Positions 2,782-46,562 are shown, counted from the first letter of the stretch. The stretch: 64,000 bases of DNA from Blastococcus saxobsidens DD2 (GCF_000284015.1 NC_016943.1:4381541-4445540); one strand, 5' to 3'. The notes: generated by a model not told the origin, from the sequence alone. Translations and numbers: made by a program.

Positions 2782-4362
2782 TCATCTGCCGATGGCTCCG
2801 CCGAGGCGGCGGTACCGGTGCAGCCGGGTGCGGAAGCGCTCGGTGTCGTCCCGGCCGAGCAGACCGGCCAGCTCCTCGCCGAGCACCCGGCCCAGCCGCA
2901 GGCAGAACTCGGTCGGTTCGTCGGCGGCATCGGGCCGCTCCGGCACCACCCGGTCGACGATGCCGGCCCGCCAGAGATCGGTGGCCCGTACTCCCTGGTC
3001 GGCGGCCATCTCGCCGGCCCGGTCCACGGTGCGGTGCACGATGGCCGAGGCGCCTTCCGGCGGCAGCGGGCCCAGCCAGCCGTTGGCCGCGGCCAGCACC
3101 CGGTCGGCCGGCACCAGGGCGAGCGCCCCGCCGCCGGTGCCCTGCCCGAGCAGCACCGCCAGCGTCGGCGCCTTCAGCACCACCAGGTCGTGCAGGCAGC
3201 GGGCGATCTCCCCGGCCAGCCCGCCCTCCTCGGCCTCCCGCGACAGCGCCGCGCCGGGGGTGTCGATCAGGGTCACCAGCGGCAGCCGCAGCTCCGCGGC
3301 CAGGTGCATGCCGCGCCGCGCCTCGCGCAGGGCCGCCGGGCCCAGCGGCACCGACAGCGACTGGCCCCGCCGGTCCTGCCCGAGCACGACGCACGGGGCG
3401 CCGCCGAACCGGGCCAGCGCGAGCAGCAGCCCCGGGTCCTTCTCACCGGCCCCGGTGCCCGAGAGCCCGACGACGTCGGTGGCGGCGGTCCGCAGCAGCC
3501 GCCGCACGCCCGGGCGGTCCTCCCGTCGCGACGCGGTGACGACGTCCCAGGCGGTACGCCCGTCTGCACCGTCCACCCCGCCCAGCCCCGCGTCGGTGCC
3601 GTCCTCGGGGGTGGGCCGCTCGGCGTCCCGGACGTCGAGGTGCCAGGTCTGCCGGGCCGAGAGCACGCGCAGCGCGCGGTCGGCGACCTCGGCGATCTCC
3701 CCGTGCGGGACGACGGCGTCGATCAGGCCGTGCTCGGCCAGGTTATCGGCGGTCTGCACCCCTTCGGGGAACGGTTCGCCGTAGAGGGCCTCGAACACCC
3801 GCGGGCCGAGGAAGCCGACCGAGGCGCCGGGCTCGGCGATGGTGACGTGCCCGAGCGAGCCCCAGGAGGCGAGCACGCCGCCGAAGGTCGGGTGGCGCAG
3901 GTACACCAGGTAGGGCAGTCCGGCCTCCTTGTGCCGGGCGATGGCCGCGGTGATGCCGATCATCTGCAGGAAGGCGACCGTGCCCTCCTGCATCCGGGTG
4001 CCGCCCGACACCGGTGCCGCGAGCAGCGGCAGCCCCTCGTCGGTGGCCCGCTCCACCGCGGCGATCAACCGCTCGGCGGCGGCCACGCCGATGGAGCCGG
4101 CGAGGAAGCCGAACTCGCCGGCGACGACGGCCACGCGCCGGCCGCGCAGCCTCCCCTCGCCGGTGATGATCGACTCGTCCTGCCGCGACTTCTCCTCGGC
4201 CGCCGCCAGCTCGCGCGCGTAGCCCTCCGACACGTCGGGGCGGACGACCGGGGAGTCCCACGACGTCCACGAACCCGCGTCGAGCACGAGGTCCCGGAGC
4301 GAGCGTGCGTCGAGGCGCGCGGGCGGCACCGGCTCCGCCCGTAACGTGGGCGGCGAAATCAC
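2782..4362 (-). CDS. Fused acyl-CoA carboxyltransferase (AccD/AccA-like)
   Basis: A 526-residue protein with two crotonase-fold carboxyltransferase halves. The N-terminal half (about residues 50-240) is AccD/beta-like, with [11 protein letters not shown] and [10 protein letters not shown]. The C-terminal half (about 300-490) is AccA/alpha-like, with [25 protein letters not shown] and [11 protein letters not shown]. No N-terminal Cys4 zinc ribbon is present, unlike bacterial AccD. Start is GTG at 4362, sharing GTGA with the stop of the preceding gene, so the two are probably translationally coupled. No biotin carboxylase or biotin carrier gene lies nearby. It may therefore serve a housekeeping carboxylase or, in this context, handle malonyl units released from a ring-opened ureide, as malonate decarboxylase subunits (same fold) do. 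Fold is clear; reaction is not. Confidence 0.8.
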
Positions 4363-5462
4363 GCCTTGACGATCGCCGCGACCGGTCCGCCGCCGGACGG
4401 GCCCTGGTGCACCGCGGCCACCGACACGAACACGGCCGGGTCACCGGTCACCGACGCCGTCACCCCACCGACCGTCGCCTTGATCTGGCGGTGCCAGGAG
4501 ACGTCGGAGTCGTCGAGCATGGCGTTGCGGCGCCCACGGACCTTGCCGTCCGGCGAGGCCTCGCACTTGAGGAACACGTTGACCAGGCGGTCGCCCAGGT
4601 CGGTGTGGTGCGGACGCTCGGGCAGTTCGAGGCCGGCGTCGCGGATCGCCGCCCAGATGCCGTCCTGGTCCAGCGCGTCCTTCATCACCGAGTGGCCGAC
4701 CCGGTACGCACCGCCGTGGCCGCGGGCGTTGCCGACCACGACGATCTGCGCCCGGTCCAGCTCCACGCCCGACGAGCAGGAGGCGACGGCGCTGTACAGG
4801 GAGAGGTCACGCATGACCTGCTCCTGCGTCGGCATCTCGATCTCGCCGAGCGCCACCGCGATGCCCAGCGCCGTCGTGCCGTTGGAGACGTCCATGGAGC
4901 CGTGCGGCTCCTCCAGGATCGTCGTCTTTCCGCGCTGGTGGGCGTCGCGGATGGTGTCGATCGTCAGCAGCGGCGTCTTCGTCTGCACGTAGTGCACGTC
5001 GGCCGGGTCGGTGATGCCGGCGGCCTCCATCGCCTTCTTCACGCCCTCGGCGACCTTCTCCACCATCGCGACGCGGCCGATGTCCTCGGGCAGCAGGACG
5101 TCGCTCATCGCGTAGCCCACGGTCAGCCGCGGCTCGTCGGTCTTCTCGACCGCGTCCTCGGGCAGCGTGGCGAAGACCGTCGCGTGCGGGCTGATGACGC
5201 CGTCGGTGCCGCCGGACCACACGATCGGGATCTGCTTGACCTCGTCGGGCGAGCGCGTGCCCTTCTCGAGCAGCACCTCGCGGAAGGCGCGGTCGGCGAT
5301 GATCCGCGTGTAGTCGTTGATCCCGCCGTTGCCCTCCGTCTTGCCGATGACGGCGACGACCCGGTCGGCCTCCATCACGCCGTCGTCGATGAGCTTGGCC
5401 AGCTCGGAGGCGTCACTGACGTTGTGCAGCGGGACCTTGCGGACCTCGATCGGAGCGGGCAT
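4359..5462 (-). CDS. Ring-opening amidohydrolase (barbiturase/cyanuric acid hydrolase family)
   Basis: A 367-residue member of the AtzD/TrzD/barbiturase family, which opens cyclic ureides: cyanuric acid to carboxybiuret, or barbiturate to ureidomalonate. All three Lys-Ser pairs of the threefold repeat are visible: Lys41 ([10 protein letters not shown]) with Ser83 ([11 protein letters not shown]), Lys162 (QTKTPLL) with Ser230/231 (CSSGVELDR), and Lys299 (FLKCEAS) with Ser356 (GPSGGGPVA). Length matches the family. Start is ATG at 5462 after GAGAGAGTGAG. It sits in an operon with a carboxyltransferase, amidase and aldehyde dehydrogenase, which fits a catabolic role. Sequence reading cannot tell barbiturase from cyanuric acid hydrolase or from an enzyme acting on a larger fused ring. 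Confidence 0.92.
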
Positions 5463-5554
5463 CGCTCACTCTCTCCTTCGTCGTGGGATCAAGCTGTCGG
5501 CCCCCTGCCGGGTACCGCGACGAACTCGCGGTCGGTGAGGATGAGGGGTGTCTT

Positions 5555-6988
5555 TCAGCGGTAGGGGATCGCCGTGTACTTGGTGTCGAGGAACTCGCGG
5601 ATGCCCTCGCTGGCGCCCTCCCGGCCGATACCGGACTGCTTGACGCCGCCGAACGGCGCCGCGGGATCGGACACGACCCCTCGGTTCAGACCCACCATCC
5701 CGGCGCGGAGCCGGCGGGAGACCGACAGGCCGCGGTCGAGGTCGCGCGTATACAGGTAGGCGATGAGGCCGAATTCGCTGTCGTTCGCCAGGGCGATGGC
5801 CTCGTCCGTGGTGGAGAAGCGCACGACCGGCGCGACCGGGCCGAAGATCTCGGTGCGGAGGATGTCGGCGTCCGGCTTCACGTCCGCGAGCACCGTCGCC
5901 TGAAAGTGGTAGCCGGGGAGGTCACCGGTCCCGCCGCCCGCGGTCACGGCAGCCCCCTGCGCCACCGCACCGGCCACCAGGTCGGCCACCTTGTCCCGGG
6001 TCGCGGCGTTCACGAGCGGTCCGAGCTCGACGTCCTCGTCCAGCCCGTTCCCGGATCGCACGGCCGACATCCGCGTCGACAGCTCGGCCACGAAGTCGTC
6101 GGCGATCGCATCGGCGACGTAGATGCGGTTGGCCGCCGTGCAGGCGGAGCCCCCGTTGCGGAGCTTGGCCACCATGAGCCCGTTGACGGCGTCGGCCAGG
6201 TCGGCGTCCTCGAGGACGACGAATGGCGCGTTGCCGCCCAGTTCCATGGACGGCCGAACGACGTTGTACGCCGCGGCGGCCAGCAGGACGCGCCCGACCT
6301 CGGTGGAGCCGGTGAACGACAGCGCGCGGATTCGGGGGTCGTGCAGGGCGTGGTCCACGACCGGACCCGACCGCTTCGTGCAGACCACGTTGAGCACGCC
6401 GCGCGGCAAGCCGGCCCGCTCGAGCAGGTCGACCAGCGCGAGGGCGGTGAGCGGCGTCTCCGCAGCCGGCTTCAGGACGGCCGTGCACCCCGCGGCGAGC
6501 GCGGGGGCGATCTTCCGGGTGGCCATGGCCGCCGGGTAGTTCCAGGGGGTCACCAGCAGGGCGACGCCCACCGGCTCCTCGGTGACCATGATCCAGTTCT
6601 GTCCGTTGGGGGATCGCCGCATGTCGCCCGGGATCCGGACCGCCTCCTCGGCGAACCAGCGGAAGAACTCCGCGGCGTACGCAACCTCGCTGCGGGCGTC
6701 ACGGAGGGCCTTGCCATTCTCGCGAACGATCAGCCGGGCGAACGTCTCGGCCTCGGCGACCATGAGCTCCCAGGCGCGGCGGAGGATCTCCCCACGCTCC
6801 CGGGGCGGGAGCTCCGCCCAGCCTTGCTGGGCGCGCTCGGCGGCGCCGATGGCCGCGTCCATGTCCGCGATGCCGCCGTCGGCGACGTGCCCGATGACGT
6901 CGGTGGTCGCCGGGTCGACGACCGGGATGAGGTCTGCCGCGACGACCGGCTCCCGCCACGTGCCGTCGATGTACAGGCCGGTTTGCAT
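5555..6988 (-). CDS. NAD(P)-dependent aldehyde dehydrogenase (succinate-semialdehyde type)
   Basis: A 477-residue aldehyde dehydrogenase that would oxidise an aldehyde intermediate to the acid. Visible family motifs are PWNYP, the cofactor-loop FTGSTEVGR, the general base Glu in MELGGNAP, the catalytic Cys in NGGSACTAANR and the C-terminal EIFGPV. The frame stays open upstream to 7087, but ATG at 6988 (MQTGLYIDGTW) matches the normal family N-terminus and follows GGGAGACCTG, so it is preferred. It lies 14 bp after the ornithine-cyclodeaminase-like gene and 92 bp before the amidohydrolase gene. Motif context is closest to the succinate-semialdehyde dehydrogenase (GabD) group, but the true substrate probably comes from the surrounding pathway. 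Confidence 0.88.
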   Translation of the reverse strand: MQTGLYIDGTWREPVVAADLIPVVDPATTDVIGHVADGGIADMDAAIGAAERAQQGWAELPPRERGEILRRAWELMVAEAETFARLIVRENGKALRDARSEVAYAAEFFRWFAEEAVRIPGDMRRSPNGQNWIMVTEEPVGVALLVTPWNYPAAMATRKIAPALAAGCTAVLKPAAETPLTALALVDLLERAGLPRGVLNVVCTKRSGPVVDHALHDPRIRALSFTGSTEVGRVLLAAAAYNVVRPSMELGGNAPFVVLEDADLADAVNGLMVAKLRNGGSACTAANRIYVADAIADDFVAELSTRMSAVRSGNGLDEDVELGPLVNAATRDKVADLVAGAVAQGAAVTAGGGTGDLPGYHFQATVLADVKPDADILRTEIFGPVAPVVRFSTTDEAIALANDSEFGLIAYLYTRDLDRGLSVSRRLRAGMVGLNRGVVSDPAAPFGGVKQSGIGREGASEGIREFLDTKYTAIPYR

Positions 6989-38784: not shown

Positions 38785-39684
38785 CTACTGGCGGTCCCAC
38801 CACGCTCGGGCCGCCTCGGCCGGGGTGCGCCCCTGCAGCTCGACCGCGCGGTTGAGCGCGACGAGGTCGGCCGTGGTCAGCCGTGCGCTGGTGCTCTCCA
38901 GGGCCTCCCGCAGCGGCTCGCCCCACCGGTCGAACACCTCCGAGCGCACCATCGGCACGACGTTCTCGCGGGGCTGCAACCCGCGGTCGTCGGCCAGCAG
39001 GACCACCGGCGCGATCGCCAGCCGGGCGTCGGTGGTCTCGAGCATGCCCACCTGGATCTGCCCCGCCAGGAGCGCCTCGATCGTGGCCGCCCGTGACGGC
39101 ATGCTGGTCACCGCCCCGAAGCGCACGCCGTAGACCTGCTCCAGACCGAGCAGGCAGAACGGCCGGTCCGGGCACTCCGGCGGACCGCCGAAAGCCAGAT
39201 CTCCGGCCAGACCGGTGAGGTCGGACAACCGGTGCACATCGTGGGCGGCCGCGAAATCGGTGGTGACGGCGAAGCCGTTCTGGTCCTCGGCGTCCGCGGC
39301 GGCGAGGACGTCGACCCCGCGCCCGCCCATCGTGCGGGTGAGGACGGCGTGCATCTGCTCGGGCATCTCCGGCGGGCGGGGGAACTGCGGACGGGCGAAG
39401 GCGAGCGCCGTGCCGAGGTAGTCGACCACGACGTCGACCACGCCTTGCTGCAGTGCTGGTGACACCACCTCGCGGGTGCCGATGCCGTGCTGCACCGACA
39501 CCGGCAGCCCCCGTCGGCGCACGGCCTCGGCGTAGACCTCCACGAGGGTCTGGTTCTCCGGGAAGTCGTAGGAGGCGAACCGGATCGTGTCGGGCCGGTC
39601 CGGTGGGGACGGCGATCCCCGCTCGCAGCCGGTGAGCACGCAGAGGGCCAGGAGGACCGCGACGACGCCCCGGCCAGCGCGCAC
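38785..39684 (-). CDS. Glycine betaine/osmoprotectant-type ABC binding lipoprotein
   Basis: A 299-residue OpuAC/ProX-family solute-binding lipoprotein: signal peptide with lipobox VLTGC (Cys about 20), then IRFASYDFPENQTLVEVYAEAV and VDYLGTAL, the ligand-site segment of the family. GTG at 39684 is chosen because GGGAGG lies 8 bp before it; the GTG at 39693 touches that site. No permease or ATPase gene is adjacent, so the rest of the transporter is elsewhere or the protein is an orphan. Confidence 0.82.
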   Translation of the reverse strand: MRAGRGVVAVLLALCVLTGCERGSPSPPDRPDTIRFASYDFPENQTLVEVYAEAVRRRGLPVSVQHGIGTREVVSPALQQGVVDVVVDYLGTALAFARPQFPRPPEMPEQMHAVLTRTMGGRGVDVLAAADAEDQNGFAVTTDFAAAHDVHRLSDLTGLAGDLAFGGPPECPDRPFCLLGLEQVYGVRFGAVTSMPSRAATIEALLAGQIQVGMLETTDARLAIAPVVLLADDRGLQPRENVVPMVRSEVFDRWGEPLREALESTSARLTTADLVALNRAVELQGRTPAEAARAWWDRQ

Positions 39685-39822
39685 GGCACCCACCTCCCGC
39701 TGTCCCGGGCCCCGCTCGCTCCTCCCCCGGCACGGTGGCCGGCGGCGGAGGCGGTCACGGTAGCGCCGAACGGGGCCGAAAGGGATGGCTTCGGCCCGCG
39801 CGAGGGTGGAACATCAGCCGGC

Positions 39823-41538
39823 ATGGCGTCGCTGCCGCAGGCGCTGCCGGAACAACGGGCGGTGGGTCCGGTCACGCGACCGGCCCCGCCCCCGATCGCC
39901 CGCGTCCGACGCCGCCGCCGTCCCTCGGGCGAGCCCCCGCCCCTGCCCCGCCAGCTGCGGGCGTCGGGAAAGTGGTGGCTCGGGCTCAGCGCAGCGGTGC
40001 TGCTCGCCTGCGTCGCCGTCGTCGCCACGGACACCATCCGCTACGTCGACGTCGCCGACACCCGGGTCCTCCAGGCCATCGCCGGTATCCGCTCCCCCGG
40101 GCTGACCGCCGTCGCCGACGCCGCCGGCATGCTCGCCGCCGCCGCGGTGCTGCACGTGATCTGGCTGACCGACCTGGTCCTGCTGGCCGTCTTCCGCCGC
40201 TGGCGGCACCTGTTGGTGTGGCTGGGCGTCGGCCTGCTCGTCATCAACGTCGGTGCGGCGATGGCGACCACACTGCAGCGGCCGCGACCGTTCGAGGTCC
40301 AGGTCCTCGGCGACTGGTCGGGCTTCGCCATGCCGTCGCTCCCGGTGACCGTGCTCGCCGCGCTCCTGGTCAGCACGCTGTACTCGCTGGTCCCGCCCGG
40401 CCGGATGCGCACGATCGGCAAGTGGCTGGTCTGCGGATTGCTGGTGGTCACCGCCGCCTCCCGGCTCTACCTGGCGCAGGACCATCCGACCGGGGTGCTG
40501 GCCGGGATCGTCCTCGGCGTGGCGACGCCCCTGGCCGCGTTCCGGCTGCTCACTCCCAACGCCGCACACCCGGTGCGGTACACCAGGTCGCGGCCGGCAC
40601 ACCTCGACGTCTCCGGCGAGCGCGGGGCGGCCATCGTCCGGGCGCTGCAGGACCAGCTGGGCCTGGTGGCCACCGACGTCGCACCCTTCGGCCTGGCCGG
40701 TTCCGGCGGGTCGACGCCGCTGAAGATCACGGTGAAGGCCGCCGGTCCGCAGGACGACGGCGGGAGCTGCGTCTTCGGAAAGCTGTACGCGGCCACCCAC
40801 GTCCGCTCCGACCGCTGGTACAAGCTCGGCCGCACGCTGCTCTACGGCCGGTTGGAGGACGAGAAACCGTTCTCCACCGTCCGCCGGCTGGTGCAGTACG
40901 AGGACTACGTCCTGCGGGTCTTCTGCGACGGCGGGCTGCCGGTGCCCCAACCCCTCGGCATCGTGGAGATCACGCCCGAGCGGGAGTACCTGCTGGTCAC
41001 CGAGTTCATCGCCGGGGCGCAGGAGGCCGGCGAGGCCGAGATCGACGACGCGGTGATCGACCAGGGGCTGGCCGTCGTCCGCCGGATGTGGGAGATCGGC
41101 ATGGCGCACCGGGACATCAAGCCGGCCAACCTGCTGGTCCGAAACGGGACGCTGTACCTCATCGACTCGGCCTTCGCCGAGGTGCGCCCGAGCCCGTGGC
41201 GGCAGGCGGTGGACCTGGCGAACATGATGCTGGTCCTGGCGCTGCGCACCGACGCCGAGCGGGTGTACCGGCGGGCGCGGCGGCACTTCTCCGACGAGGA
41301 GATCGCCGAGGCGTTCGCCGCCACCCGCGGCCTGACCATCCCCTCGCAGCTGCGCCGCATGCTGCGTCAGCAGGGCCGCGGCCTGCAGGACGAGTTCCTC
41401 GCCCTGCTGCCCTTCCGGCTGCCCCCGGTCCGCATCCAGCGCTGGACGTGGCGGCGGGGCGGCCTGACCGTCGTCACGCTGGCCGCGGCCACGCTCGCCG
41501 GCTACGTGTCCGTCGGTCTGCTGAGGTCCCCGCTGTGA
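39823..41538 (+). CDS. Membrane protein: degenerate PAP2 domain fused to kinase-like domain
   Basis: A 571-residue fusion. After a Pro/Arg-rich N-terminus come about six helices forming a PAP2-type domain (about 55-240). Its phosphatase motifs are damaged: LQRPRPF is kept, but PSGH is PSLP (171-174) and SRLYLAQDHPTG lacks the final Asp, so it is probably inactive. Residues about 265-540 form a RIO/Kdo-kinase-like domain: GKLYAATHVRSDRWYK, HRDIKPANLL (429-438) and LIDSAF with Asp448 in the DFG position. One last helix ends the protein (about 548-565). The gene opens a four-gene operon with 4-bp overlaps. A membrane-bound kinase acting on a lipid or polyprenol substrate is a reasonable guess, no more. 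Confidence 0.8.
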   Translation: MASLPQALPEQRAVGPVTRPAPPPIARVRRRRRPSGEPPPLPRQLRASGKWWLGLSAAVLLACVAVVATDTIRYVDVADTRVLQAIAGIRSPGLTAVADAAGMLAAAAVLHVIWLTDLVLLAVFRRWRHLLVWLGVGLLVINVGAAMATTLQRPRPFEVQVLGDWSGFAMPSLPVTVLAALLVSTLYSLVPPGRMRTIGKWLVCGLLVVTAASRLYLAQDHPTGVLAGIVLGVATPLAAFRLLTPNAAHPVRYTRSRPAHLDVSGERGAAIVRALQDQLGLVATDVAPFGLAGSGGSTPLKITVKAAGPQDDGGSCVFGKLYAATHVRSDRWYKLGRTLLYGRLEDEKPFSTVRRLVQYEDYVLRVFCDGGLPVPQPLGIVEITPEREYLLVTEFIAGAQEAGEAEIDDAVIDQGLAVVRRMWEIGMAHRDIKPANLLVRNGTLYLIDSAFAEVRPSPWRQAVDLANMMLVLALRTDAERVYRRARRHFSDEEIAEAFAATRGLTIPSQLRRMLRQQGRGLQDEFLALLPFRLPPVRIQRWTWRRGGLTVVTLAAATLAGYVSVGLLRSPL

Positions 41539-42125
41539 GGGGCCGGCGACGCCGTGCCCTTCTGCCCGTGGTGGCGGCGGGGCTGCTGGCCGGCTGCGTG
41601 CGGCCGGTGGTGCTCGGCGAGGACACGCTCGCCTGCCGGAAGGGCGACGACGGCCACCCGGCGAACGGCGTGGTCCTGATGGCCCAGTCGGTCCCGAGCG
41701 CGACCTGGGTGCCCTGCCTGGAGGTCATGCCCCTCGGCTGGGACCTCGCCGGGTTGGACGCCACCGAGAGCTCCGCGCGTTTCTGGCTCGACTCCGACCG
41801 CGACGGCGTGCACGCCCTCGAGATCGTCCTGACCCCCGCGTGCGACACGACGCAGGCCACCGAGATCCCCAGCGAGCGCGAGGGGATGCGCCGGTGGGAA
41901 CGGGTGACCCAGGTCAGCCCGCAGTACGTCGGCACGCGGCACTACGTCTTCGAGGGCGGCTGCCTGAGCGTGCTCTTCCGGCTGTCCGGTGAGAATCGCT
42001 CCGAGCCCCTGGGGGTGGCCACGCAGGCCATCGGCGCGGTGACCCGCGACCAGGTGCGCACCGCCGTCCGGGACCGGACGGACGGCGAGCTGGCACTCGA
42101 TCCTCCCGAGGACGGTGCCCGGTGA
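41535..42125 (+). CDS. Lipoprotein of the PAP2-kinase operon
   Basis: A 196-residue exported lipoprotein: RGRRRRALLPVVAAGLLAGC is a short basic signal peptide ending in a lipobox (Cys about 21). The mature part has several Cys (ACRKG, PCLEV, PACDT, GGCLSV) that could form disulfides. GTG at 41535 overlaps the previous stop by 4 bp, and its own stop overlaps the next start. No known domain recognised; operon position suggests it works with the membrane kinase/phosphatase on the outer face. Confidence 0.75.
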   Translation: MRGRRRRALLPVVAAGLLAGCVRPVVLGEDTLACRKGDDGHPANGVVLMAQSVPSATWVPCLEVMPLGWDLAGLDATESSARFWLDSDRDGVHALEIVLTPACDTTQATEIPSEREGMRRWERVTQVSPQYVGTRHYVFEGGCLSVLFRLSGENRSEPLGVATQAIGAVTRDQVRTAVRDRTDGELALDPPEDGAR

Positions 42126-43213
42126 GCACCGCCACGGCCGCTGACGTCCGCAGGCCCCGCCCCCTCCGGTACCGCCTCGCGGGGCCGGTGCTGTCGGTGG
42201 GCCTGGTCGCTGCCGTCTTCGTCTGGTTCCTGCCGCAGTTCACCAGCCTCGCGCAGGTCTGGGCGGCGGTCGTCGACATGACCTGGCTGGAGAAGTCGGC
42301 GTTGCTGCTGGCCGCGGTCTGGAACCTGGTCACCTACCAGTTCGTGGTGGTCGCGACGACGCCCGGCATGACCGTGCGGCAGGCCACGGTGGCGACCGAG
42401 GCGGCGACCGCCGTGTCCAACACCGTGCTCGGCGGAGCCGCTGTCGCCGTCGGGCTCACCTACGCGATGAACTCCTCGTGGGGCTTCTCCCGCTCCCGGA
42501 CCTCCGTCGCCCTGCTGATCGCCGGACTGTGGAACAACTTCGCCAAGCTGGGGCTCCCGGTGCTGGCACTGGCGCTGCTGGCGTTCACCTCGCCACCCTC
42601 GACCGCCCGGGTGCTCGCGGGGCTCGCCGGGCTCCTCGGGCTGGGTGCGGCGGCCGCCCTGCTCGGCGCCGTGCTGCGCGGCCCCGACACGGCCGCGCGG
42701 GTGGGCCGGGCGGCGGCCCGGGTGGCCTCGGCTGCGCGCCGCCCGTTCCGCCGGGCGCCGGTGACCGGCTGGGACCGGGCGACGGCGAAGTTCCGCGACC
42801 GCACCGTCCTGCTGCTGCGGGCCCGGTGGCACTGGATCACCCTGGCAACCCTGGTCAGCCATTTGTCCCTGTTCCTCCTGCTGCTGCTCTCGCTGCGCTT
42901 CGTCGGTGTGGGCGCCGACCAGGTGAGCCTGGCCGAGGCGCTGGCCGTCTTCGCCTTCGCCCGGCTGCTCACGGCGGTCCCGCTCACGCCCGGCGGCCTC
43001 GGCGTCGTGGAGCTCGCCCTGATCACCGGCCTGGCGGCGGCGGGCGGGCCGCGGGCGCTGGTGGCCGCGGCGGTGCTGGTGTTCCGGGCGCTGAGCTACG
43101 TCCTGCCCATCCCCATCGGCCTGGGCAGCTACCTGTTCTGGCGGCACAACCGGTCCTGGCGACGTGAGCCCAACGCCGCTCCCCGGACCGCGCTCGTCCC
43201 GGAGGCGGCGTGA
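42122..43213 (+). CDS. YbhN/LPG-synthase-type transmembrane protein (UPF0104)
   Basis: A 363-residue membrane protein with about eight helices, of the family that forms the flippase domain of lysylphosphatidylglycerol synthases. NTVLGGAAVAVGLTYAMN and AFARLLTAVPLTPGGLGVVELALITGL are family signatures. It lacks the soluble aminoacyl-transfer domain of MprF. GTG at 42122 overlaps the lipoprotein stop. In this operon it may move a lipid across the membrane for the kinase or phosphatase. Confidence 0.85.
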   Translation: MSTATAADVRRPRPLRYRLAGPVLSVGLVAAVFVWFLPQFTSLAQVWAAVVDMTWLEKSALLLAAVWNLVTYQFVVVATTPGMTVRQATVATEAATAVSNTVLGGAAVAVGLTYAMNSSWGFSRSRTSVALLIAGLWNNFAKLGLPVLALALLAFTSPPSTARVLAGLAGLLGLGAAAALLGAVLRGPDTAARVGRAAARVASAARRPFRRAPVTGWDRATAKFRDRTVLLLRARWHWITLATLVSHLSLFLLLLLSLRFVGVGADQVSLAEALAVFAFARLLTAVPLTPGGLGVVELALITGLAAAGGPRALVAAAVLVFRALSYVLPIPIGLGSYLFWRHNRSWRREPNAAPRTALVPEAA

Positions 43214-43226
43214 CCACCAGGGGCCG

Positions 43227-43883
43227 GTGCGGCTGATGCTCGTCGACTCCCGGAGGGGACTCGTGGTCAGCGGCGGGCTGCTGGCCGGCGCGGCCCTCGT
43301 CGGCGTGCTCGTCCTCCTGCCGGCCACGGCGCCGGCCGTCCAGGCGGTGGACGACGCGGTGTGGCGGTGGGTGGGCTCCGCGCACAGCGACGTGGCGACG
43401 GCGGTGGCGGTCGCCCTCTCCTGGATCGGCAGCGCCGAGGTCAACTGGCCGCTGCGGGGGGCGGCCCTGCTGCTGCTGGCCTGGCGGCGGCACTGGCTGC
43501 GCATGACGGCGTTCGCCCTCGCCGTCGTGACCAGCGAGCTGTTCATCGGGCCGGTCAAGGCGGCCACCGACCGGCCCCGCCCGCCGGGCGCCCTGATCGA
43601 GACGACGGCCGCCTCGTTCCCGTCCGGCCACGCCATCGCCACGGCGGTGACCGCCCTCGGGCTGGTCCTGGTGTTCGCCCGGCCGGGTCCGCGGCGCTGG
43701 CGGTGGGAGGTGCACGCGGTGGAGTTCACCGCGGTCATGGCGCTGTCCCGCGTCTACCTGCGGGCGCACTGGCTCTCCGACACCGTGGTCGGCGTACTGC
43801 TGGGGGCGGGGCTGGCGCTGGGGTGGCCGGCGCTGCTCATGCTCCTCCGGCACCGGCGCGACCCGACCGCCTCGACGTCCTGA
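43227..43883 (+). CDS. PAP2-family phosphatase
   Basis: A 218-residue, six-helix lipid phosphatase with all three motifs: KAATDRPRP, PSGHAIAT and SRVYLRAHWLSD. It removes phosphate from a lipid such as undecaprenyl diphosphate or phosphatidic acid. GTG at 43227 follows AGGGG by a short distance; ATG at 43236 is an alternative. It begins 13 bp after the YbhN stop. It supplies the active phosphatase that the fused PAP2 domain of the first operon gene lacks. Confidence 0.88.
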   Translation: MRLMLVDSRRGLVVSGGLLAGAALVGVLVLLPATAPAVQAVDDAVWRWVGSAHSDVATAVAVALSWIGSAEVNWPLRGAALLLLAWRRHWLRMTAFALAVVTSELFIGPVKAATDRPRPPGALIETTAASFPSGHAIATAVTALGLVLVFARPGPRRWRWEVHAVEFTAVMALSRVYLRAHWLSDTVVGVLLGAGLALGWPALLMLLRHRRDPTASTS

Positions 43884-43990: not shown

Positions 43991-45754
43991 ATGGCCCAGC
44001 CGACGACCGAACCGGCCCGCACGGCCTCGGCTCCCCCGCCCCAGCACCCCGACGCCGCCCCCGCCGCCGGAGGCCCCGAGCAAGCGGCGGAGGCCGCCAC
44101 GGGGCTCGACATGCTGCTGGTCGACGCCGCGCGCGGGCCGCTGCGCCGGCTCGTGCCGCCGGCCGGCACCGCCCTGCGCTTCGGCTCGGCGCTGGCCCGC
44201 AAGCCGGACGTGGTGGCGCGTCGCGGCGGCGAGCTGGCCCGCGAACTCGGAAAGGTCGTGGCCGGTCGCTCGGAGCTGGCGCCGGGCAAGAAGGACAAGC
44301 GGTTCACCGACCCGGCCTGGAGCGGCAACCCGCTGCTCAAGCGGGCCATGCAGGCGCACCTGGCCGCGGCCAGGGTGGCCTGGGAGCTCATCGAGGACGC
44401 CGACCTCGACTGGCAGGACGACGAGCGGATCCGGTTCACCGCGACGAACCTGGTGGACGCGCTGGCCCCGAGCAACGTCCCGGTCGTCAATCCGCTGTCC
44501 CTGAAGGCGGTCATCGACACCGGCGGAGCCAGCGCCTTCAAGGGTCTGCGGCGGATGGTCAAGGACCTGGCCAATCCCCCGCGGGTCCCGACGATGGTGG
44601 AGCCCGACGCCTTCACCGTCGGCGAGGACCTGGCGGTCACCCCCGGCGCGGTCGTCTTCCGGACCGACGTCTTCGAGCTGATCCAGTACCGGCCGACGAC
44701 CGAGACCGTGCGCGCGCTGCCGCTGGTGATGGTGCCGCCGACGATCAACAAGTTCTACATCGCCGACATGGCGCCGGGCCGCAGCATCGTCGAGCACTAC
44801 GTGTCCAGCGGCCAGCAGGTGTTCATGATGTCGTGGCGCAACCCCGACGAGCGGCACGCCGACTGGGACCTCGACACCTACGGGCAGGCCGTCCTCGACG
44901 CCATGGACGCCGTGGAGCGGATCACCGGCCAGGAGCAGGTGGCGCTCCAGGCGTTCTGCTCGGGCGGGATCATCACCGCGATGGTGCTGGCCCACCTGGC
45001 CGCCACGGGACGGCAGGACCGGGTCCGTGCGGTCAGCTACGCGGTCACCGTCCTCGACTGGGACCGGGCCGGCACCATGTCGGCGCTGATGGACGAGGAG
45101 GCCGTGCAGGCCGCCACCGAGCGCTCGCGGAAGAAGGGCTACCTCGACGGCGCGCAGCTGGCCGAGGTGTTCGCCTGGCTGCGGCCCAACGACCTGGTCT
45201 GGAACTACTGGGTCAACAACTACCTGCAGGGCAAGCCCCCGCCGAACTTCGACATCCTGTTCTGGAACGCCGACACCACCCGGATGACCGCGGGCCTGCA
45301 CCGCGGCTTCATCGAGGTGGCGCTGAAGAACGCGCTGACCCGGCCGGGCGCGTCGCGCATGCTGGGCTCGCCGGTGGACCTGTCGGCGGTCACGGTGGAC
45401 AGCTACGTGACCGCGGGGATCGCCGACCACATCTGCCCCTGGCAGTCCTGCTACCGCAGCACCCAGCTGCTGGGCGGCGAGAGCCGGTTCATCCTGTCCA
45501 CCAACGGCCACATCGCCTCGCTGGTCAACCCGCCGGGGAACCCGAAGTCCACCTTCCAGGTGGCGGAGTCCACCCCGCCGGACCCCGACCGCTGGCTGCA
45601 GCAGGCCGAGACGGTCAAGGGCTCGTGGTGGCCCGACTTCATGAGCTGGCTCGGGAACCGCTCCGGCGAGGAGATCCCGGCACCGCGCGAACTGGGCGGG
45701 AACGGCCTGGAGGTGCTGGCCGAGGCGCCCGGGACGTATGTCTTCGACAAGTAG
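43991..45754 (+). CDS. phaC: Poly(3-hydroxyalkanoate) synthase (PhaC)
   Basis: A 587-residue class I/II-like PHA synthase that polymerises (R)-3-hydroxyacyl-CoA into storage granules. The catalytic Cys323 is in QAFCSGG (the first Gly of the usual GxCxGG box is Ala), the Asp is in IADHICPW and the His in NGHIAS. MVPPTINKFYIADM and PGRSIVEHYVSSGQQVFMMSWRNP are family landmarks. ATG at 43991 follows AAGGAG. It is followed by an overlapping hydrolase gene. Confidence 0.93.
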   Translation: MAQPTTEPARTASAPPPQHPDAAPAAGGPEQAAEAATGLDMLLVDAARGPLRRLVPPAGTALRFGSALARKPDVVARRGGELARELGKVVAGRSELAPGKKDKRFTDPAWSGNPLLKRAMQAHLAAARVAWELIEDADLDWQDDERIRFTATNLVDALAPSNVPVVNPLSLKAVIDTGGASAFKGLRRMVKDLANPPRVPTMVEPDAFTVGEDLAVTPGAVVFRTDVFELIQYRPTTETVRALPLVMVPPTINKFYIADMAPGRSIVEHYVSSGQQVFMMSWRNPDERHADWDLDTYGQAVLDAMDAVERITGQEQVALQAFCSGGIITAMVLAHLAATGRQDRVRAVSYAVTVLDWDRAGTMSALMDEEAVQAATERSRKKGYLDGAQLAEVFAWLRPNDLVWNYWVNNYLQGKPPPNFDILFWNADTTRMTAGLHRGFIEVALKNALTRPGASRMLGSPVDLSAVTVDSYVTAGIADHICPWQSCYRSTQLLGGESRFILSTNGHIASLVNPPGNPKSTFQVAESTPPDPDRWLQQAETVKGSWWPDFMSWLGNRSGEEIPAPRELGGNGLEVLAEAPGTYVFDK

Positions 45755-46562
45755 GCCGGGCGTCGTCCGCAGCGTGACGGTCGGCGGCCGGACCCTGCGG
45801 GTGGCCGTCCGGCCCGGCACCGACGACGAGGTGCCGCCGCTGCTGCTGATGAACGGCATCGGCGCGAGCCTGGAGGTGCTGCAGCCGCTCGTCGACGCCC
45901 TCGACCCCCGGCGGACCGCCATCCGGTTCGACGTGCCCGGCGTGGGTGGGTCGCCGCGGCCCGTCGTCCCGTACGTGCTCTCGACGCTGACCCCGGTGGT
46001 GGCCGGGCTGCTCGACCGGCTCGGCCACACCGGGCAGGTTGACGTCCTCGGCCTGTCGTGGGGCGGTGGGCTGGCCCAGCAGTTCGCCGTGCAGCACCGG
46101 CGGCGCTGCCGGCGGCTGGTGCTGGCCGCGACGGGCACCGGGACGTTGATGGTGCCGGCGCACCCGCAGGTGCTGGCGCGGATGCTCACCCCGCGCCGGC
46201 ACCGCGACCCGGAGTACGCGCGCGAGATCGCCGGCCTGATCTACGGCGGGACGATGCGCACCGACCCCGAGCGGGCCGCGACCGCGTTGCACACGCACAC
46301 CCGGGTCGGCCCCCGGCGCGGTTACTACTACCAGCTGGCGGCGAGCACCGGCTGGAGCAGCCTGCCGTTCCTCCGGCTGATCCGGCAGCCGACCCTGGTG
46401 ATCGCCGGGGACGACGACCCGATCATCCCGGTGGTCAACGCCCGGCTGATGGCCCGGCTCATCCCCCGCGCCCAGTTGCACGTGTACCGCGGCGGGCACA
46501 TCGCGCTGATCACCGAGTCCGACGAACTGGCCCCGGTGATCGACGGGTTCCTGGACGACTGA
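45738..46562 (+). CDS. Alpha/beta-hydrolase, probable intracellular PHA depolymerase
   Basis: A 274-residue alpha/beta-hydrolase: oxyanion-hole region LLLMNGIGASLEVL, nucleophile Ser in GLSWGGGLAQQFA, acid in AGDDDPIIPV and His in GGHIALI. The closest family by wording is the PhaZ-type depolymerase next to phaC in pseudomonads, which mobilises PHA. ATG at 45738 lies 17 bp inside phaC, so the pair is translationally coupled. General esterase activity is the alternative. Confidence 0.85.
   Translation: MSSTSRPGVVRSVTVGGRTLRVAVRPGTDDEVPPLLLMNGIGASLEVLQPLVDALDPRRTAIRFDVPGVGGSPRPVVPYVLSTLTPVVAGLLDRLGHTGQVDVLGLSWGGGLAQQFAVQHRRRCRRLVLAATGTGTLMVPAHPQVLARMLTPRRHRDPEYAREIAGLIYGGTMRTDPERAATALHTHTRVGPRRGYYYQLAASTGWSSLPFLRLIRQPTLVIAGDDDPIIPVVNARLMARLIPRAQLHVYRGGHIALITESDELAPVIDGFLDD

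Follow-up and report, generated by a model that had tools for sequence, protein, structure and literature searches.

The genome of Blastococcus saxobsidens DD2 contains a cluster of five genes, designated here E and A to D, which points to an undescribed device linking a signal from outside the cell to the handling of membrane lipids. The cluster lies within a stretch of 64,000 nucleotides (GCF_000284015.1 NC_016943.1:4381541-4445540) that we refer to as the window. It encodes a solute-binding lipoprotein (E), a fusion of a catalytically dead PAP2 phosphatase domain with an intact kinase (A), a second lipoprotein (B), a flippase-like membrane protein (C) and a PAP2 phosphatase (D). In the reading that we prefer, with a probability of roughly 0.4, E, A and B constitute a transmembrane receptor kinase coupled to the putative lipid translocator C, with D as an accessory. 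Protein folds, the catalytic residues that have been kept and lost, and gene linkage are shown, whereas every functional step of this reading is inferred. A known fold or family can be named for every part of the cluster except B, whose fold is tentative.

Gene linkage and distribution

The initial annotation of this DNA, made from the sequence alone, had described genes A to D as one operon (39823-43883), and its reading frames, gene content and junctions proved to be correct. Genes A and B, as well as B and C, overlap by 4 bases (GTGA in both cases), and D follows C after 13 bases if it starts with the GTG at 43227 (an alternative in-frame GTG is at 43164). A scan for promoters and terminators returned no match. 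The overlap of A and B (NTGA) is kept in 44/44 Geodermatophilaceae loci. Using profiles for all parts of the cluster, we found B in 40, E in 38, C in 38 and a separate PAP2 gene in 25 of the 40 complete Geodermatophilaceae loci. Among 31 distant A copies, B was found with 28 (fused to A in 13 cases), E with 12, C with 15 and PAP2 with 15, and these counts are lower bounds, as 18 of the 31 copies are located close to contig ends. The most conserved unit is thus A-B, followed by E and C.

The distant loci belong to many other families, where A-B, E, C and PAP2 remain linked at 46-58% identity with changed order and strand. Gene E may be divergent from A, upstream and co-directional, or downstream of B, and C may be upstream, downstream or convergent. 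The linkage is therefore not mere inheritance of one gene order; the operon is genuine and above chance. A lack of co-occurrence of the four genes in other genomes, which would have refuted the proposal of the initial annotation, is not what we observe.

Gene A was detected in 57 of 112 Geodermatophilaceae genomes, in 5 of 296 genomes of the class and in 26 of 396 genomes of the phylum (phylum search with an E-value of 1e-60 or better). With this patchy occurrence, the cluster is an accessory system and no core pathway. Two genomes (G028 and G042; loci L068-L072 and L075) possess several A-B copies each, mostly without E and C, which resembles a lineage-specific expansion.

A conserved pseudophosphatase domain in protein A

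The N-terminal part of A is recognized by the Pfam profile for PAP2 (30.1 bits, cut-off 27.2), whereas the structural fold search of A returned kinase matches only. The PAP2 fold is kept (Pfam profile; match to YodM), and A shares with the phosphatases PgpB, BcrC and YodM the RPRP and PS elements and an Arg. It lacks, however, the catalytic Lys and the two His residues that mark these enzymes, and it fails the test for the PAP2 catalytic motifs (KX6RP, PSGH, SRX5HX3D): the Lys of motif 1, the PSGH sequence (replaced by PSLP, as noted in the initial annotation) and the nucleophile His are all lost. The initial annotation had also stressed the missing final Asp. This residue is indeed absent in the window, but it is still present in many relatives of A (DHPTD), and the key loss is that of the nucleophile His, which in a gap-free alignment of A to D is replaced by Asp220, together with that of the motif-1 Lys.

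The PAP2 domain is dead in every A-type sequence that we read, from Geodermatophilaceae as well as from distant families. The nucleophile position of motif 3 is Asp in nearly all of them, and the motif-1 Lys and the His of PSGH are gone. As these losses are shared by the family and by the distant sequences, the domain is an old, conserved pseudophosphatase rather than the product of a recent accident. In an alignment of 40 sequences, D220, R214, R153/R155, P171 and S172 are invariant. The invariance of R214, D220, RPRP and PS in a dead domain suggests that binding, but not catalysis, has been retained.

The kinase domain and the topology of protein A

The kinase motifs HRDIKPANL and IDS, already recognized in the initial annotation, are accompanied by the β3 Lys and the αC Glu; indeed, K320 (β3), E360 (αC), D431 (HRD), N436 and D448 (metal binding) are invariant in the 40 A sequences. 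In the Pfam scan, A gave no matches other than to PAP2 and to kinase-type domains, the RIO1, Kdo and Pkinase profiles matching below their cut-offs. The RIO1 score is just under the cut-off of 22 bits in the window (20.2 bits) and reaches 27.6 bits in locus L045. In the AlphaFold 2 (AF2) model of A (predicted local distance difference test, pLDDT, 78.7), the best fold matches of the kinase found with VIA-align are RIO1, RIOK3 and PRPK/Bud32 (Z 14-15.8), compared with about 12 or less for Ser/Thr kinases and 11.6 for WaaP. The model thus predicts a RIO/Bud32-like kinase with its catalytic residues in place, and a lack of nucleotide binding, named in the initial annotation as a possible objection, is not indicated. 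In contrast to RIO and Bud32, which are soluble and belong to ribosome and tRNA-modification biology, the kinase of A is held between membrane helices.

AF2 places the last helix of A at residues 543-567. Read from its positively charged N-terminus, A has six helices, then the kinase and then this final helix, which strongly implies that the kinase is inside the cell and the C-terminus outside, with the PAP2 pocket, B and E facing outwards as well. A role in anti-phage defence was considered and rejected: in a PADLOC scan, A gave only weak matches of its kinase domain (PD-T4-6, 24 bits or less), B a single match at chance level (14.1 bits), and C, D and E none.

B, the obligate partner of A

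No match to B was found in Pfam and NCBIfam, and sequence search of the PDB revealed no convincing relative (best E about 1). The AF2 model of B (pLDDT 87.8) matches Tsi3, DcrB, LpqN, MTC28, PsbP and RseB-type domains with Z of 5.4-8.6 at low sequence identity, so that the name of its fold (α/β, common in envelope proteins) is tentative. B is present in 24 of the 396 genomes of the phylum, and all 24 carry A. In the two A-bearing genomes without a match to B (G073 and G267), A is at or near a contig end. Furthermore, B shares an open reading frame with the kinase of A in 15 loci. A and B are obligate partners, and B can be defined as a partner found only with A. As the fusions join B beyond the last membrane helix of A, B is probably outside the cell.

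E, a solute-binding lipoprotein next to a kinase

Gene E was not noticed in the initial annotation. It was found by clustering the neighbours of A, as a divergent gene that recurs in distant families. The protein matches PF04069 (OpuAC) over its full length (E-value 2.1e-42, 145.9 bits, cut-off 21.2) and has an N-terminal lipobox. It resembles ProX, OsmF and EgtUC over the whole length, and the carboxylate-binding Arg of ProX is invariant. The aromatic cage, however, is largely gone. In an alignment with Archaeoglobus fulgidus ProX, whose cage residues we take to be those numbered here, only Tyr63 of the four cage tyrosines is kept, Tyr111 being replaced by Asn, Tyr190 by Glu or Phe and Tyr214 by Glu. 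With three of the four tyrosines lost, a plain quaternary ammonium compound is an unlikely ligand, and for the same reason the ProX pocket gives no lead to the ligand of E.

Unlike ProX, OsmF and EgtUC, E has no ATP-binding cassette (ABC) partner next to it; no permease or ATPase gene recurs beside E in these clusters. Relatives of E encoded away from A or in genomes lacking A (about 36-41% identity, with the motif GGPPEC..R..C in common) adjoin an ABC ATPase gene, and several of them also permease-like genes (assigned by motif and by eye). E therefore appears to be a binding protein of the ABC-transporter type that was recruited beside a kinase. Note that the ABC-type operons with a GGPPEC..R..C OpuAC protein (loci L133 and L135-L142) represent a distinct subfamily of solute-binding proteins with the E-like motif.

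The flippase-like protein C and the optional phosphatase D

C exceeds the cut-offs of PF03706 (LPG_synthase_TM; 59.5 bits, cut-off 33.4) and TIGR00374 (49 bits, cut-off 43.2), which places it with the flippase domain of MprF and with YbhN/UPF0104 proteins (AglD, GpgF). By family membership C is thus a predicted lipid flippase. PF03706 is its sole match in the Pfam scan, which found neither DedA nor DUF368 domains. MprF is reported to be a lipid scramblase (PMC11980842), and GpgF is encoded in a glycolipid operon (PMC12713373). C differs from these proteins in the absence of a synthase domain and in its partners, which are kinase and PAP2 proteins instead of an aminoacyl- or glycosyltransferase.

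D (62.1 bits with PF01569) has the complete PAP2 catalytic motifs (KAATDRPRP, PSGH, SRVYLRAHWLSD), as stated in the initial annotation. Nevertheless, D is a dispensable, optional member of the cluster. In 15 of the 40 complete Geodermatophilaceae loci no separate PAP2 gene is nearby, and in all nine strains tested that keep E-A-B-C without D after C, no close homologue of D was found in the whole genome (two strains possessing D gave strong matches in the control). We therefore rejected D as an essential part. In several loci, two consecutive PAP2 genes follow C (L012, L019, L020, L025-L027, L030, L034-L036, L038, L042, L043); the first of them is similar to the PAP2 domain found in the single-chain proteins described below (motif AR....AHLPLD).

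Single-chain fusions and a second cluster

In some members of the phylum outside the class of B. saxobsidens, a single polypeptide of about 800-870 residues unites PAP2, kinase and LPG_synthase_TM domains, and every catalytic residue is retained (L088-L091; e.g., L089:3275-5746, minus strand). Seven further proteins (L092-L098) have the same layout with a dead PAP2 domain, and in six of them (L092, L093, L095-L098) the kinase is damaged as well. Two of these (L097, at 3346-6057 on the minus strand, and L098) come from a large-genome, Streptomyces-like lineage; here Pfam recognizes only the flippase domain of L097. Geodermatophilaceae furthermore possess a second cluster (L113-L130; e.g., L118:7669-14938), in which a paralogue of A (42-47% identity) is near a PAP2-kinase(-flippase) fusion that is followed by C and a PAP2 gene. 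Among the 24 fusions from both sources, the Lys/Glu/Asp/Asp set of the kinase is intact in 17/17 proteins with an intact PAP2 domain and in only 1/7 with a dead one, a count that is indicative only, as the sequences counted are mutually related and the third PAP2 motif is not clean in one of the 17. The neighbours of the single-chain genes, inspected by eye, revealed no common theme (FtsH-like protein, DNA polymerase III/thymidylate kinase, hydrolases, UvrD).

Proposed function

We propose that E binds a small polar solute outside the membrane and makes contact with B, with the dead PAP2 pocket that A exposes to the outside, or with both; this pocket might itself read the head group of a membrane phospholipid. 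Docking would change the activity of the RIO/Bud32-like kinase on the inner face. The kinase would then determine how C moves a membrane lipid between the leaflets, either through phosphorylation (of C, of some other target in the cytoplasm or of itself) or through ATP hydrolysis. Where present, D would be an accessory that dephosphorylates a lipid at the outer face of the membrane.

One of the closest known systems is GlnH-GlnX-PknG, which senses amino acids in Actinobacteria and for which transmission of a periplasmic signal via GlnH to a cytoplasmic kinase is supported (PMC6069109, PMC9769921). There, as with E, A and B, an ABC-type solute-binding lipoprotein is encoded beside membrane and kinase genes, and this precedent, in which a binding protein of the ABC type feeds into a membrane kinase pathway, favours an outside-sensing kinase; by analogy, the signal may run from the periplasm to the kinase here as well. 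The two systems also differ. GlnH is an amino acid binder, and E is of the OpuAC/ProX type. PknG has tetratricopeptide repeat and rubredoxin parts, whereas A joins a membrane domain with a dead PAP2 fold and a RIO/Bud32-like kinase in one chain, and the cluster includes a flippase.

Several points weigh against a receptor kinase. Several distant A-B copies lack E, and the fold matches of B are of middling score. The kinase-PAP2-flippase single chains manage without E and B, so that sensing may have been added later to a lipid-processing core. As the same genome encodes other OpuAC proteins, E could serve an ABC transporter encoded elsewhere. Finally, that E binds a ligand, which way the signal runs, what the kinase acts on and which lipid is involved are inferred rather than observed.

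The initial annotation had proposed that the operon drives a membrane lipid or polyprenol phosphate cycle. The linkage of the genes, the intact kinase and the one-chain fusions agree with this, but the four genes are not conserved as a closed cycle: nine genomes keep E-A-B-C without D, and E had been overlooked. In a refined form, A would be an inner-face lipid or polyprenol kinase with the dead PAP2 domain as lipid-binding platform, C would translocate the lipid, D or another PAP2 protein would dephosphorylate it outside, and E and B would recognize the head group. Such a cycle is doubtful, but it is the strongest rival of the receptor kinase. PAP2, kinase and LPG_synthase_TM do recur as separate genes, in one chain and in the second, paralogous cluster, and there are weak matches to Kdo/WaaP sugar-lipid kinase families. 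The best argument is the co-retention of intact PAP2 and kinase in the fusions, as if both acted on one substrate, although the relatedness of the sequences counted weakens it. On the other hand, C and PAP2 are both missing from the vicinity of some A-B copies, and the kinase fold is closer to RIO/Bud32 than to WaaP. Two findings further disfavour recycling of polyprenyl phosphate as a core carrier: the cluster is patchily distributed (57/112 in the family, 5/296 in the class), and C is neither a DedA nor a DUF368 protein. The conservation of a solute-binding E points towards ligand sensing rather than a closed four-gene cycle, and because E is present and D is dispensable, we favour an outside-sensing kinase over the lipid-phosphate cycle.

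An envelope assembly complex, in which B (LpqN-like) and E would be chaperone-like lipoproteins, the kinase would regulate or act as an ATPase for assembly, and an exported lipid or glycolipid would be handled by C and D, seems improbable to us. The fold neighbours of B do include LpqN, MTC28 and Rv0999-type envelope proteins of actinobacteria, and YbhN/UPF0104 proteins, predicted to act as flippases in glycosylation pathways (PMC5898192), are encoded in operons for glycolipids, for example gpgSDF (PMC12713373); however, the match of B is middling, and the cluster neighbours include no recurrent family of glycosyltransferases or deacetylases. It is similarly improbable that the cluster serves uptake or group translocation, E capturing a solute that the PAP2-like domain of A (with B) helps to bring through or pass on and the kinase phosphorylates on entry, with C and D modifying the membrane. 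An ABC-type binding protein without ABC partners adjoining a membrane protein with an intact kinase would fit, as would the invariant residues in the dead domain, but C and the kinase-PAP2-flippase chains would be left unexplained and no PAP2 fold is known to transport solutes. A chance or clonal neighbourhood without common function is hardly credible: synteny within Geodermatophilaceae could be inherited, but this does not apply to the rearranged clusters of the other families, B was never found without A, and there are proteins in which A is fused to B, or a kinase to a flippase.

Beyond the receptor kinase proposed for this cluster, we suggest, as a doubtful extension, that it belongs to a new class of membrane machines in Actinobacteria, in which kinase and phosphatase domains, active or dead, are mounted on a flippase, and the passage of a specific lipid across the membrane is driven or gated by a phosphorylation cycle or by a ligand from outside. 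The forms of this class would be separate genes (E-A-B-C-D), single chains, and pseudo-enzyme versions in the Streptomyces-like lineage. We found no description of a PAP2-kinase-flippase combination in the literature covered, which mostly excludes subscription journals. How MprF/YbhN flippases are controlled or powered is an open question, and the input signal is known for only a few membrane kinases of bacteria; in this cluster a kinase, what is probably its sensor on the outside and a flippase are inherited together. Moreover, its natural fusions show which parts work together, and it contains a pseudophosphatase domain that is conserved although dead.

Features of the locus

Table 1. Genes and domains of the cluster in the window (positions counted from its first nucleotide).
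Feature	Position	Strand	Description	Basis
Gene E	38785..39693	-	OpuAC/ProX-type solute-binding lipoprotein, lipobox LTGC, divergent from A	PF04069 match; PDB relatives ProX/EgtUC
Gene A	39823..41538	+	Fusion of dead PAP2 and kinase, 571 amino acids, with C-terminal membrane helix	Pfam PAP2; AF2 model
A, PAP2-like domain	39943..40602	+	Six helices, catalytic residues lost	Motif table; 40-sequence alignment
A, PSLP motif	40333-40344	+		
A, Asp220 codon	40480-40482	+	At the position of the nucleophile His	
A, kinase domain	40603..41442	+	Predicted cytoplasmic, RIO/Bud32-like	VIA-align Z; invariant residues
A, kinase HRD	41107-41115	+		
A, Asp448 codon	41164-41166	+	Metal-binding Asp of the kinase	
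A, C-terminal membrane helix	41449..41523	+	Continues into domain B in many relatives	AF2; A-B fusions
Gene B	41535..42125	+	Putative extracytoplasmic lipoprotein, lipobox LAGC, LpqN/PsbP/Tsi3-like predicted fold, obligate partner of A	
Gene C	42122..43213	+	LPG_synthase_TM (MprF/YbhN/UPF0104), flippase-like	PF03706 and TIGR00374 above cut-off
Gene D	43227..43883	+	PAP2 phosphatase, full motifs; optional cluster member	PF01569

Downstream of D (43991-46562), the genes resemble, by eye, those for a polyhydroxyalkanoate synthase and an α/β hydrolase; their synteny with the cluster is kept in Geodermatophilaceae but not in the distant loci.

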